Notes under the pieces: generated by a model
The model's database searches: none
What the model was told of the DNA's origin: nothing
The model's input: only the letters and a program-made list of their open reading frames with translations
Made by a program: the position numbers and the translations under genes
In this document: positions 37,294 through 41,166 of the stretch, piece after piece
How positions within the stretch are numbered: position 1 is the stretch's first letter
Layout of the letters: each line of letters begins with the position of its first letter
Assembly (NCBI GenBank): GCA_030431255.1
Contig: JAUIJL010000001.1
Location: 496,001-560,000, forward strand
Origin: Thermoanaerobaculia bacterium
GTDB taxonomy: Bacteria > Acidobacteriota > Thermoanaerobaculia > Multivoradales > J023
Direction of reading: 5' to 3'
DNA: 64,000 nt

Positions 37294-37310
37294 GTGTGGA
37301 TCGTCCACAC
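37294..37310 (+). promoter_or_regulatory. Perfect palindrome abutting a Shine-Dalgarno site
   Basis: GTGTGGATCGTCCACAC has 7-bp perfect arms around TCG and ends one base before AGGAG (37311-37315) of the acyltransferase gene. It could be an operator or an mRNA hairpin that controls access to the ribosome site. Confidence 0.5.
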
Positions 37311-37322
37311 AGGAGATCTCTC

Positions 37323-39185
37323 ATGTCTCTATTTACTGGAAATACGATTGCCGGAAACACAGTGGTTGCCGGAAATACGGTGGCCGAAAAAGCAGCTGTG
37401 ACGCCGACCCTGGCCGCCGCGATCGAGCGTCGCCATGATCTCGACGCCTTGAGAGCCTTCGCCATGCTTTTGGGCATTGTGCTGCACGGAGCCCTGTCGT
37501 TCATGCCGGCGCTTTGGCCGATCCGAGATGCTCAGCAGAATGAGCTTCTCGCTTGGATGGTGGGCATCATCCACGGTTTTCGCATGCCGGTTTTCTTCGT
37601 CATGAGCGGATTTTTCACCGCCATGTTGTGGCGTCGCAGGGGCCTCCAAGCCCTGCTCAATCATCGATTCCGTCGCATCTTCTTGCCCCTGCTGCTCGGT
37701 ATGCTGACCGTGGTGCCGGCCGTGGAGTGGGTGTCCAAGAAAGGCCTCGAGCTGGGGCCCGGTACGCCTCCGGCCTCGGCGGAATCGTCCGCGGATGCCG
37801 AGCCGAGCCCCGCGACCGGCTTTTCCGAAAAGAGCCTGGAGGAGCTGAACGCGGTGGATCCGGTGACCACTTTGACGCCCCTTTCATTGGCTTCGGTGCA
37901 GGGCACCACGGATTCGATGCGTGAGCTCTTGACGTTGGGCGTCGAGGTGAACGGCACCAACCGTGACGGCTCCACCGCGTTGGTGCTCGCCGCCCTTGCC
38001 GGTCATGTCGAAGCCGCGGAGCTGTTGCTCGAAGCGGGTGCGGATTGGAGCTTGGCCGGTGCCGACGGATCCACTCCTCTTCACACGGCCGCCTTCTTCG
38101 GCCGATTCGAGGTGGTGGAGCTGTTGTTGGCAGCGGGAGCCGACCCCGGCATTAGGAACGGCTACGGTCAAACCGTGCCCGAGGTGCTCGCAGCCGATTG
38201 GCAGACCACCTCCTTTATCGCCGGCATGGTGGGTCAGAAGCTCGAACGCGAGCTGTTGGAGGCGGGGCGAGCCAAAATCGCCGAAGCCTTGGCGGCCCAC
38301 GCCGACGCAGAGCTGGACGGGCAGAGCTCCGGTGAAGCCGGCTCGCAGGTCTCGGGAGCCGGAGGCTCGCAGGTTTCGGGAGCCAGAGGCTCCAATGCCG
38401 AGGTCTCGGGCTGGGTCGTCCAGCTGATGATCCGCCCCTTCTTCCATCATCTGTGGTTCTTGTGGTTCCTCTGCTGGTTCATGGTGGCCTTCGCAGCCTA
38501 CGCTTGGGTGTCTGACCGCAGAGCCGAAGACGATTCGGAGGGTGGAATCGTGAGACTTCTGGTGCTGTCACCCTTCCGCCTTCTGTGGTGGGTGCCGATC
38601 ACCTGCGTGCCGCAATTCTGGATGGGACGGCAGATGCCGGGATTCGGTGCCGACACCTCCGTCGGCTTGCTGCCCATGCCTCACGTGCTGGCGTTCTACG
38701 CCATCTTTTTCTTCTTTGGCGCCCTTTATTTCGACGCCGACGATAGCCAGGGCCGGGTCGGCCGATGGTGGTGGCTCTGCTTGCCCTCGGGCCTGTTGCT
38801 CTTTCCCGTCGGTGCGGGTTTGGCCATGGCTGGGGCTCACAACGTGGAGCCCGGAGTCCGAGCCATGGCCGTCTTGCTGCAGGCGATCTACCCGTGGATC
38901 ATGATCTTCGGCCTGATGGGCCTCTTCCGTCGTCTGTTGAGCACTGAACGCCCGGCCTTGCGCTATCTGTCGGACGCTTCCTACTGGCTCTACTTGGCCC
39001 ATCTGCCACTGATCATGGGTGCTCAGATTTTGGTGCGGAATATGAATCTACCCGCGTCGGCGAAATTCACTCTGATCTGCGTGGTGGTCACGGCCATTCT
39101 GTTGATGATCTATCAAACCGCCGTTCGCTACACATGGTTGGGTCGGCTTTTGAACGGTCCCCGGCGTCGGTCGGCGGTTGGATGA
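37323..39185 (+). CDS. Acyltransferase-3/OpgC-like membrane protein with inserted ankyrin repeats
   Basis: A 620-residue protein; ATG 37323 has AGGAG 7 nt upstream. The first part (RRHDLDALRAFAMLLGIVLHGALSFM, then MPVFFVMSGFFTAML...RRIFLPLLLG) is the start of an acyltransferase-3 domain, a 10-TM family that O-acylates envelope glycans. Residues about 181-290 are three to four ankyrin repeats (DGSTALVLAALAGHVEAAELLLEAGA, DGSTPLHTAAFFGRFEVVELLLAAGA) inserted between TM3 and TM4. A low-complexity run of SQVSG units follows, then the remaining TMs (HHLWFLWFLCWFMVAF...SDASYWLYLAHLPLIM). The N-terminus has imprecise GNTVA repeats. Confidence 0.87.
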   Translation: MSLFTGNTIAGNTVVAGNTVAEKAAVTPTLAAAIERRHDLDALRAFAMLLGIVLHGALSFMPALWPIRDAQQNELLAWMVGIIHGFRMPVFFVMSGFFTAMLWRRRGLQALLNHRFRRIFLPLLLGMLTVVPAVEWVSKKGLELGPGTPPASAESSADAEPSPATGFSEKSLEELNAVDPVTTLTPLSLASVQGTTDSMRELLTLGVEVNGTNRDGSTALVLAALAGHVEAAELLLEAGADWSLAGADGSTPLHTAAFFGRFEVVELLLAAGADPGIRNGYGQTVPEVLAADWQTTSFIAGMVGQKLERELLEAGRAKIAEALAAHADAELDGQSSGEAGSQVSGAGGSQVSGARGSNAEVSGWVVQLMIRPFFHHLWFLWFLCWFMVAFAAYAWVSDRRAEDDSEGGIVRLLVLSPFRLLWWVPITCVPQFWMGRQMPGFGADTSVGLLPMPHVLAFYAIFFFFGALYFDADDSQGRVGRWWWLCLPSGLLLFPVGAGLAMAGAHNVEPGVRAMAVLLQAIYPWIMIFGLMGLFRRLLSTERPALRYLSDASYWLYLAHLPLIMGAQILVRNMNLPASAKFTLICVVVTAILLMIYQTAVRYTWLGRLLNGPRRRSAVG

Positions 39186-39463
39186 ACGACCCTAGGTCTC
39201 CCGACGAGGTCGAGAGCGGGCGACTGTTCAGAGGTGGTGAGCCGTCAATTGACAAGAGAGATGGGTTTCACCACAATTGGGCGGTCAAATGGGCAGGACA
39301 GCTCGCAAATAACCCAGAGTTATCTGTCGCGTGTTCAGCCCGTTTCCCTACCGCGTCAGAGGTAACGGTAGGAGCTGTTTTAGGTTGAGTCATGCGGCTG
39401 ATCTCTTGAGAATCGACCTCTGAGGCCGTGCTGAATCCCACATCCTTCCCCAAGGAGCCCGTC

Positions 39464-39646
39464 ATGAAAAAGCGTGAAGTTTCCAAAGAGCTGGTTGAGA
39501 AGACCGTAGAGACCCTCGACCAGCTCGAGAACGCAGTCCTCGACATCAAAACCGGTGTGACCGCCGGCGGCACCGGCGATCGTCCCACGTTCCCTGCTCC
39601 CACGCCGGACTACGGCTGCCCGACTCCCTGCACCGCGGAGTACTGA
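39464..39646 (+). CDS. RiPP precursor peptide (putative radical SAM substrate)
   Basis: A 60-residue peptide; ATG 39464 has AAGGAG 6 nt upstream. Residues 1-35 are a charged helical leader (MKKREVSKELVEKTVETLDQ...). A Gly-Gly (TAGG) follows, then a short Pro/Thr/Tyr/Cys-rich core ending PTPDYGCPTPCTAEY with a C-x3-C pair. A radical SAM/SPASM enzyme gene begins 173 nt downstream on the same strand. Leader-GG-core plus an adjacent SPASM maturase is the layout of ribosomally made, post-translationally modified peptides. No exporter or peptidase gene is adjacent. No known precursor family recognised. Confidence 0.75.
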   Translation: MKKREVSKELVEKTVETLDQLENAVLDIKTGVTAGGTGDRPTFPAPTPDYGCPTPCTAEY

Positions 39647-39731
39647 TATCAGCAACGAAGCATTGAAGGTCTCCGCCGTGCCCCGAGTGCTGCGGGCGTA
39701 ACCTGAGCGTGCCTCGAACCGATTCAGTTTG

Positions 39732-39760
39732 AGACGCGGGATCTAGCGGGTCCCGCGTCT
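39732..39760 (+). terminator. Terminator/attenuator between RiPP precursor and maturase
   Basis: AGACGCGGGA and TCCCGCGTCT form a perfect 10-bp stem with a 9-nt loop, followed by TTCGCTTTCTT. It lies 85 nt after the precursor stop and 59 nt before the maturase ATG. Partial read-through would give more precursor than enzyme, as is usual in RiPP loci. Confidence 0.7.
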
Positions 39761-39819
39761 TTCGCTTTCTTGTCACCTCTCATTTTTTTCTACTCATTTT
39801 TTCCACAGAAAGAACCGAC

Positions 39820-41166
39820 ATGGCTGAAGCCGTCCGTGATCCGAATTATCTCCGGTCTACCTATGCGGTGTGGGAGATCACCCTCAAATGCAACCTGGGC
39901 TGCATTCACTGCGGATCGCGAGCCGGAGATGCGCGCACGAACGAGCTGGACACCGCCGAAGCGCTCGATTTGGTCGGCCAATTGGCCGGTGTCGGAGTCC
40001 GTGAGGTGACCCTGATCGGCGGGGAGTCTTTCCTCAGGCCCGACTGGCTCGACATCGCCAGGGAAGTTCGCAAACAGGGCATGCGGCTGACCATGACCAC
40101 CGGCGGGTTTGGTCTCGGGCCCAAGCTAGCCGATCAGATGGCAGACGTCGGCTTTTCGAGGGTCAGCGTTTCGATCGACGGTCTGGAAGCGACCCACGAC
40201 TATCTGCGAGGAAAGAAAGACTCCTGGAATTGGTGCTTCAAGGCGATCGAATCCCTGCAAAACGTAGGCATCGACGTCACGGCCAACACTCAGCTCAATC
40301 GGTTGAACGCCCCCGAGCTGCCCCGTCTATACGAAGCTATCTACCAAGCCGGGGTGAGGGTGTGGCAAGTGCAAAAAACCTCTCCCATGGGCAATGCCGC
40401 GGACCGGCCGGAGATCATTTTCCAGCCGTACGACATGTTGGAGCTCTTCCCGGTGCTCCACTACATCTTGATGCGCGGGCTGGATGAAGGATTCCAAATG
40501 GCGCCCAGCGACAGCCTCGGCTATTTCGGTCCCTACGAGCGCCGCCTCCGGCAGCATCGAAACACACCCAATCCCGACACCGCGTTCTGGGTCGGCGATT
40601 TGGGTGGGGTGATGAGTCTCGGCATCGAGTCCGACGGCACGATCAAGGCCGATCCGTCCCTGCCCACGGACGACTATGCCGGCGGCAATATTCGCGAAAC
40701 GTCCCTCGAAGAAATCATTTACGAAGCCGACCGGCTGGCGATCAACGACGAACGGGGTCTCGAGCACCTTTGGGGATTCTGCAAGAGCTGCGAGTTCGCC
40801 GAGATCTGCCGCGGCGGTCAAGTCTGGAGCTCCCACGTCTTCTTCGATCGGCGTGGCAACAATCCGCTCTGTCACCATCGGTCGCTGATTCACGCCGCCC
40901 AAGGGTTACAAGAGCATCTGCGATTGGCAGAGCGAGCTGAAGGCGTGCCGTTCGACAACGGCGTCTTCGAGATCTCGGTGGAAAAAGCTTCCGACCCATC
41001 CCCGGAAGCCTTCACCATCGACAGGGTCGACTGGCCCGAAGCCTGGCTCGAAGCCGAGCCCGACCTGTCCGCAAGGCTCAAAGCAGAGCGCGATCGCACG
41101 ATCGAGGTCTGGCGTCAGACCCGGCTGTCCAAGATGCCGGCTGTAGTGGAGACGGCGTCTGTCTGA
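39820..41166 (+). CDS. Radical SAM/SPASM peptide maturase lacking AuxI ligands
   Basis: A 448-residue enzyme. C24-x3-C28-x2-C31 (KCNLGCIHC) binds the SAM [4Fe-4S] cluster; GGES (67-70) is the SAM-binding motif. The C-terminal SPASM-like region keeps C321-x2-C324-x5-C330 and C351, the ligand set of AuxII. The three recognisable AuxI positions are changed: D260 (GDLGG), D278 (G273-x4-D in TIKADPSLP) and Q334 (C330-x3-Q). The frame PSLPTDDYAGGNIR and LWGFCKSCEFAEICRGG and GNNPLCHHR resembles maturases paired with short peptides in myxobacteria. It probably modifies the peptide encoded at 39464-39646. No RRE/PqqD domain is seen. Confidence 0.9.
   Translation: MAEAVRDPNYLRSTYAVWEITLKCNLGCIHCGSRAGDARTNELDTAEALDLVGQLAGVGVREVTLIGGESFLRPDWLDIAREVRKQGMRLTMTTGGFGLGPKLADQMADVGFSRVSVSIDGLEATHDYLRGKKDSWNWCFKAIESLQNVGIDVTANTQLNRLNAPELPRLYEAIYQAGVRVWQVQKTSPMGNAADRPEIIFQPYDMLELFPVLHYILMRGLDEGFQMAPSDSLGYFGPYERRLRQHRNTPNPDTAFWVGDLGGVMSLGIESDGTIKADPSLPTDDYAGGNIRETSLEEIIYEADRLAINDERGLEHLWGFCKSCEFAEICRGGQVWSSHVFFDRRGNNPLCHHRSLIHAAQGLQEHLRLAERAEGVPFDNGVFEISVEKASDPSPEAFTIDRVDWPEAWLEAEPDLSARLKAERDRTIEVWRQTRLSKMPAVVETASV

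Follow-up and report, generated by a model that had tools for sequence, protein, structure and literature searches.

What does a radical SAM/SPASM enzyme do to its peptide when the residues that hold one of its two auxiliary clusters are gone? The question is raised by two genes of an Acidobacteriota genome (Thermoanaerobaculia bacterium, GenBank assembly GCA_030431255.1), in which a small precursor peptide is followed by a SPASM maturase that keeps the cysteines of auxiliary cluster II (AuxII) and has none of the three cysteines of auxiliary cluster I (AuxI). A review describes direct evidence that the SPASM auxiliary clusters take part in catalysis as long out of reach, and calls it unclear what AuxII does (PMC9012708). 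The window is the whole stretch of DNA that was analysed, 64,000 nucleotides in length, and positions without a locus number refer to it.

The locus and its parts

39464..39643 (stop codon to 39646), + strand: precursor peptide, 60 aa; open reading frame and profile search
39464..39568, + strand: leader, residues 1-35, ending in T-G-V-T-A-G (family T-x-[VL]-x-A-G); alignments, putative cleavage site
39569..39643, + strand: core, residues 36-60; alignment, predicted boundary
39608..39616, + strand: D49-Y50-G51, the X-Tyr-Gly motif within P-D-Y-G-C-P; YG invariant in 9/9 precursors; PMC10533398
39731..39761, + strand: 14-bp hairpin followed by T-rich DNA, terminator- or attenuator-like, between the two genes; z -3.6 against shuffles
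39820..41166, + strand: radical SAM/SPASM maturase, 448 aa, without AuxI cysteines; profiles, alignment and model
39889..39912, + strand: radical SAM motif CX3CX2C (C24, C28, C31); sequence and alignment
40597..40599, + strand: D260, at an AuxI cysteine position; alignment
40651..40653, + strand: D278, at an AuxI cysteine position, G-x4-C slot; Asp in 5/5 of the clade
40819..40821, + strand: Q334, at an AuxI cysteine position, C-x3-C slot; alignment
40780..40872, + strand: AuxII cysteines C321, C324, C330 and C351 (CX2CX5CX20C); alignment
41065..41121, + strand: C-terminal helix, residues 416-434; alignment and predicted structure

The preliminary description had taken this DNA for a two-gene RiPP locus. 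Its coordinates proved exact, with the precursor starting at the ATG at 39464, and a precursor gene adjoins the enzyme gene in 5/5 loci of the AuxI-less group described below. The GG that it had placed at the end of the leader is not conserved; the conserved element is T-x-[VL]-x-A-G, which closes a short leader in all nine precursors that were aligned. The genes flanking the pair have no obvious link to it, one being a YhgA-like putative transposase and the other an acyltransferase with ankyrin repeats (an Acyltransferase_3 membrane protein at 37296-39182, with the repeats in the middle of the protein). A single sigma-70-like promoter match at 39249-39277 (0.5 expected) was set aside.

The hairpin between the two genes of the window folds better than shuffled sequences. 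A terminator-like hairpin at this place would allow the precursor to be made in excess over the enzyme. A hairpin is predicted in the precursor-enzyme interval of all five AuxI-less loci, but only those of the window and of L003 (z -3.0) clearly beat their shuffles and those of L002 (-1.5), L038 (-1.9) and L039 (-1.5) do not, so that it was not taken as a common feature of the clade.

Loss of the AuxI cysteines

The canonical SPASM motif reads CX9-15GX4C-gap-CX2CX5CX3C-gap-C (PMC6231123). In the window enzyme three of its seven cysteines are replaced, by D260, D278 and Q334, and the four AuxII cysteines and the three radical SAM cysteines are kept; the earlier reading that AuxI is lost with AuxII retained was confirmed residue by residue. 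Nor does the enzyme fit the Twitch definition. A Twitch domain is a truncated SPASM domain with one cluster at the AuxI site, and here the AuxI set is missing and the AuxII set is kept. The radical SAM domain PF04055 is matched at 85.7 bits (cut-off 29.5). The Pfam SPASM profile scores 13.9 bits against a cut-off of 21.5, and the AuxI-positive homologues L045 and L040 reach 25.9 and 22.4.

Homologues were taken from the genome itself, from 396 genomes of its own phylum and from 84,980 species genomes (best 80 of 561 relatives), and the family counts rest on this set. All three AuxI cysteines are absent from 8 of the 91 aligned rows, which represent five genes, two of them under several locus numbers. 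The five genes come from three genomes: three paralogues of the window genome (the window enzyme, L002 and L003), one of Plesiocystis pacifica (L039) and one of a Polyangia MAG (L038). The other 83 rows (81 distinct sequences, some near-identical, close relatives included) carry all three cysteines without exception, as do 80/80 non-clade rows when duplicates and the partial or divergent L034, L053 and L029 are taken out. AuxII cysteines are found in 91/91 rows and radical SAM cysteines in 89/91, the two remaining rows being truncated. The three AuxI columns are the sole columns of the alignment that are 100% conserved outside the clade yet absent inside it. Residues at 260/278/334 are D/D/Q in the window enzyme, D/D/E in L002 and S/D/D in L003, L038 and L039; thus, position 278 is Asp in 5/5, position 260 is D or S and position 334 is Q, E or D. 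The GGE motif, like the radical SAM and AuxII cysteines, is kept in all five enzymes. Other changes are also fixed in the clade, for example L90, A108, F112, A277, D285 and A287.

In 377 genomes of Myxococcota, three matched at E <= 1e-140, two of them AuxI-less (G432 and G433) and one AuxI-positive (G434). Among the 396 own-phylum genomes eight matched at E <= 1e-40, the window genome (G000) counted. The own-phylum loci outside it have the AuxI cysteines (L026-L031, L034 and L036, of which L030, L031 and L036 were judged by eye), with two exceptions: L032 has cysteines in another, unaligned spacing, and L037 is a fragment (positions 16-153) without the AuxI region. With L032 and L037 left aside, the matches in the 377 and 396 phylum genomes add no AuxI-less gene to the five. 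That the family lacked AuxI from its origin was rejected because the sampled near and distant relatives have the cysteines; among them are seven paralogues from related genomes, of greater distance and all C/C/C.

A clade under purifying selection

The five AuxI-less genes form one clade with 100/100 support in a tree of 83 rows, and again with 100/100 in a tree of 30 rows from which the three AuxI columns had been removed. AuxI-positive L040, 55% identical to the window enzyme, is the sister of the clade at 99/91 in the 83-row tree; the 30-row tree does not resolve this branch. As judged from the trees, all three AuxI cysteines were lost once, in the ancestor of the clade. The coordinated loss that had been read from one gene is therefore a property of a clade of five. 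NG86 dN/dS values for the ten pairs of the clade lie between 0.11 and 0.31, with synonymous sites partly saturated, and the clade is under purifying selection.

These results bear on the idea that the five enzymes are paralogues in decay and without activity. That three conserved cysteines have gone, and that G001, a genome of the same genus, lacks the enzyme, would be in keeping with decay. It is nevertheless hardly credible, as all five keep the GGE motif and the cysteines for both the radical SAM and the AuxII cluster, dN/dS is well below 1, the enzymes are present in two phyla and each has one precursor. A single damaged copy was likewise rejected, there being five genes in three genomes; the check for a lone mutated copy with a degraded active site, which had been proposed earlier, went against that possibility, and the check for a precursor conserved beside the enzyme came out in favour of the locus (5/5, and one per enzyme genome-wide).

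The grouping of the enzymes differs from that of the hosts. The partial RpoB of the window genome is 68-69% identical to those of Sulfidibacter, Acanthopleuribacter and a Holophagae MAG and 67% to that of same-phylum G250, as against 59% to those of Myxococcota G432 and G433, and on these values the genome is taken as one of Acidobacteriota. However, its three enzymes group with the enzymes of Myxococcota, to which L038 and L039 belong; the AuxI-positive enzymes from Sulfidibacter and Acanthopleuribacter lie elsewhere in the trees. An AuxI-less-type enzyme was not found in same-genus G001. An Acidobacteriota RpoB together with Myxococcota-grouped enzymes and this absence suggests horizontal transfer of the AuxI-less enzymes.

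Family assignment

The top NCBIfam match of the window enzyme is TIGR04103 (nif11-class peptide radical SAM maturase 3), with 540 bits and E 2.9e-162, below the curated cut-off of 725; TIGR03913 follows with 341 bits, and TIGR04545 (131) and TIGR04051 (125) are lower. AuxI-positive relatives L040 (687) and L026 (642.5) are also under the cut-off. The cyanobacterial homologue L045 from Hyella passes it with 843, and the annotation of a Nostoc plasmid homologue carries the family name of TIGR04103. We take IPR026482 to be the InterPro entry of TIGR04103. PlpX is assigned to IPR026482, and it excises tyramine from X-Tyr-Gly and rejoins the peptide (PMC11002830). The window enzyme shares with the PlpX/PlpY system of Pleurocapsa sp. 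PCC 7319 its best-scoring family, the radical SAM domain, the AuxII set and a small X-Tyr-Gly precursor adjoining the enzyme. It differs in its score below the cut-off, in the absence of AuxI cysteines and in having no adjacent PlpY-like ORF, three points that stand against a splicease reading, and its short leader ending in T-x-[VL]-x-A-G is unlike the nif11 or nitrile hydratase leaders of that system. On account of these three points the enzyme is best filed as splicease-type, outside TIGR04103 in the strict sense. The preliminary description had named neither the splicease family nor the X-Tyr-Gly motif.

The AlphaFold model of the window enzyme is confident, with a mean pLDDT of 89.2 and a pTM of 0.89, and so is that of L040 (89.9 and 0.90). 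The nearest solved chains are those of anSME, SkfB, SuiB and the sactipeptide maturase 5why/5wgg (CteB). SuiB, CteB, SkfB, PqqE and anSME have the same overall radical SAM and SPASM/twitch fold as the window enzyme; in all of them the AuxI site is described as binding a cluster (PMC6231123), and their reactions differ. In a literature search that covered few subscription papers, no AuxI-less splicease or RiPP maturase and no assay of one was found.

The former AuxI pocket

Loss of AuxI with oxygen-donor replacements is not new in itself, as it is published for archaeal AhbD. In this enzyme one Glu and two Ser, which may form hydrogen bonds, take the places of the three AuxI cysteines; Cys-to-Ala changes at two or three AuxI positions leave AhbD almost inactive, and a single variant blocks its second step (PMC10452713). 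The natural replacement is a precedent for an enzyme that works without AuxI, and the effect of the Ala variants speaks against such a reading of the window enzyme. AhbD of non-methanogenic archaea thus resembles the window enzyme as a SPASM protein with oxygen donors in the place of AuxI cysteines. It differs in belonging to a separate family, TIGR04545, and in having a porphyrin and not a peptide as substrate. NirJ has one auxiliary [4Fe-4S] cluster held by CX2CX5CX20-21C, a spacing retained in the window enzyme (PMC12505453), but it is a haem d1 enzyme (TIGR04051) and not a peptide maturase.

What could occupy the pocket? The preliminary description had offered an Asp-ligated variant cluster, and an Asp-ligated or mixed-ligand iron-sulfur cluster could in principle still sit at the AuxI site, given that Asp278 is invariant in 5/5 and that AuxII of PqqE has an Asp ligand (PMC6231123). 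Such a cluster is not supported, since positions 260 (D/S) and 334 (Q/E/D) vary, unlike a conserved ligand set, and no cysteine is found at 260, 278 or 334; we regard it as highly improbable. A mononuclear metal bound by carboxylates is very unlikely as well. In its favour, each of the three positions is occupied by an oxygen donor in 5/5, be it D, S, E or Q, but a tight metal site would not usually vary to Ser or Gln and the comparable pocket of AhbD was modelled with hydrogen bonds (PMC10452713).

Precursors and the X-Tyr-Gly motif

Nine precursors were aligned, namely those of the five AuxI-less loci, of L040 and of the AuxI-positive Sulfidibacter, Holophagae and Acanthopleuribacter loci. 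YG is invariant in all nine. The motifs of the AuxI-less precursors are PDYGCP (window), QAPYGNG (L002), RPLYGVW (L003), MPLYGVP (L038) and MPMYGIP (L039). The longer cores of the two Myxococcota members, CPMPLYGVPMP and CPMPMYGIPLP, are close to the published splice tag PIRPLYGLPI, and the same paper gives a mass loss of 135.0757, corresponding to C8H9NO, for splicing and describes the leader as dispensable (PMC10533398); the core of the window is TPDYGCPTP. Two AuxI-less cores diverge in ways that speak against a splicease reading: X is Asp in the window and Pro in L002, and Gly is followed by Cys in the former and by Asn in the latter. A pair of cysteines stands just before YG in 7/9 precursors, as C-x4-C in six and as C-x6-C in L003; the pair is missing from L040 and from the window precursor, which has two cysteines after the motif instead.

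The AuxI-positive Sulfidibacter, Holophagae and Acanthopleuribacter precursors (L041:4419-4580, L042:4066-4239 and L068:4127-4291) are 54-58 aa long and spliceotide-like, with a short leader ending in T-x-V-x-A-G, no nif11 leader, a CX4C pair and QPLYGV. Larger or repeat proteins with several xYG were seen at other splicease-type loci (the 280-aa upstream ORF of L060, L030:2445-3245 and L027:2686-3232), where the forms are QAMYGVIM repeats, RYGV/MYGV and LYGV.

The pattern [PAQ]-x-Y-G-[VILAPC], which was defined once the data had been seen, occurs in an ORF within 1.6 kb upstream at 74/88 loci, versus 3/71 downstream control stretches. Of the 14 loci without a match, the upstream stretch is incomplete in seven, and the YG motifs of L002 and L104 fall outside the pattern. 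A precursor profile, which includes the genome's own three copies, found three precursors in the window genome, one per enzyme, at E 1.7e-23 to 2.3e-21, the next hit being at 0.45. With E values of up to 10 allowed, the window precursor matches no NCBIfam family, its leader not being recognisable as one of the Nif11 or nitrile-hydratase type, and its one Pfam match, DUF3972, is non-significant (13.7 bits, cut-off 26.2).

It was proposed earlier that the loss of one cluster may point to a distinct reaction. This is possible, but X-Tyr-Gly is retained in all five AuxI-less precursors, which favours the same reaction. A related view is that Tyr of the motif is still the target and the outcome has changed, to a cross-link with Cys52, oxidation, epimerisation or simple cleavage. 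It gains from the electron-accepting role described for AuxI in SuiB (PMC9012708), from the clade-specific fixed changes beyond AuxI and from the Cys directly after YG in the window core. Both Myxococcota members, however, keep near-canonical PLYGVP and PMYGIP cores. Cys after YG occurs only in the window among the nine, yet AuxI-positive L104 (Rheinheimera) has D-Y-G-C in its putative precursor, so that this Cys is not tied to AuxI loss. A changed outcome is accordingly considered unlikely.

Partner proteins and export

PlpY is the small partner protein of PlpX, and PlpXY is the proven unit. A PlpY-like ORF is found at the enzyme in 66/66 cyanobacterial loci and in 0/22 others, and none adjoins the window enzyme; 57 of the counted ORFs went into the profile itself, and 7 of the 22 others have flanks of no more than about 1.5 kb. 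These ORFs (L043-L117), commonly of 50-80 aa and with LLPR-x-x-W, are placed close to the enzyme gene at its 3' end, and their identity with PlpY rests on position. The C-terminal tail of the enzyme is mostly longer in loci without a PlpY-like ORF. A fused PlpY in the C-terminal helical tail, an idea prompted by eye from this pattern of absence, was rejected for want of support in a profile comparison (hhalign probability 0.1, one aligned column).

No exporter or peptidase had been reported next to the pair, which is true beside the window genes and does not hold for the genome or the clade. A C39-peptidase ABC exporter lies near AuxI-less L038 and L039 and AuxI-positive L040, and the window genome has its counterpart on a different contig (G000:C50:380658-383417; 748 bits, with 46% identity over positions 3-920 of 928). 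An 882-aa ORF beside L041 is exporter-like by its first residues. In the 16-kb exporter stretch of G000:C50 no precursor of splicease type was found. An apparent operon lies there (L151:4322-10625), with a membrane-fusion-like protein (by eye), the C39 ABC exporter and a second ABC transporter (weak match). Near the third paralogue pair, a LodA-like (lysine epsilon-oxidase) gene is followed by a flavoprotein that matches tryptophan halogenase (L134:17363-20000 and L135:97-834).

Proposed reaction

The evidence taken together makes it fairly likely that the window protein is a splicease-type enzyme that acts on D-Y-G without AuxI, probably by tyramine excision. Tyramine would be excised from the D-Y-G substrate and the peptide rejoined with no AuxI cluster involved. 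Asp278 together with D/S260 and D/E/Q334 would turn the former AuxI pocket into a hydrogen-bond or salt-bridge patch, and AuxII could be retained as a structural or electron-relay cluster. After splicing, the leader would be cut near A-G, and the C39-ABC exporter from the other contig may then carry the peptide out of the cell. Loss of AuxI would be tolerable because C8H9NO equals the N, C-alpha and side chain of Tyr with all their hydrogens, and no net electron acceptor is needed. Judged from the published formula, tyramine excision is formally redox-neutral; hence AuxI as an electron acceptor is not needed stoichiometrically.

A bolder and less probable view is that of a lineage which splices the backbone with the radical SAM and AuxII clusters alone, or which has evolved a new reaction at the same Tyr, next to Cys52 in the window, with the oxygen-donor site positioning the substrate or binding another metal.

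Significance

Short-leader loci of splicease type that have no adjacent PlpY-like ORF occur in Acidobacteriota and Myxococcota. Splicease ketoamide products are already in use for protein labelling (PMC10533398). Engineered removal of AuxI can wreck the protein, as described for AhbD (PMC10452713). The present branch offers a natural test of the purpose of AuxI, since it has lost the residues that hold this cluster. As AuxI-less enzymes occur in nature as a clade next to AuxI-positive relatives, each with its own precursor, the question of what auxiliary clusters do becomes directly testable in the splicease family.
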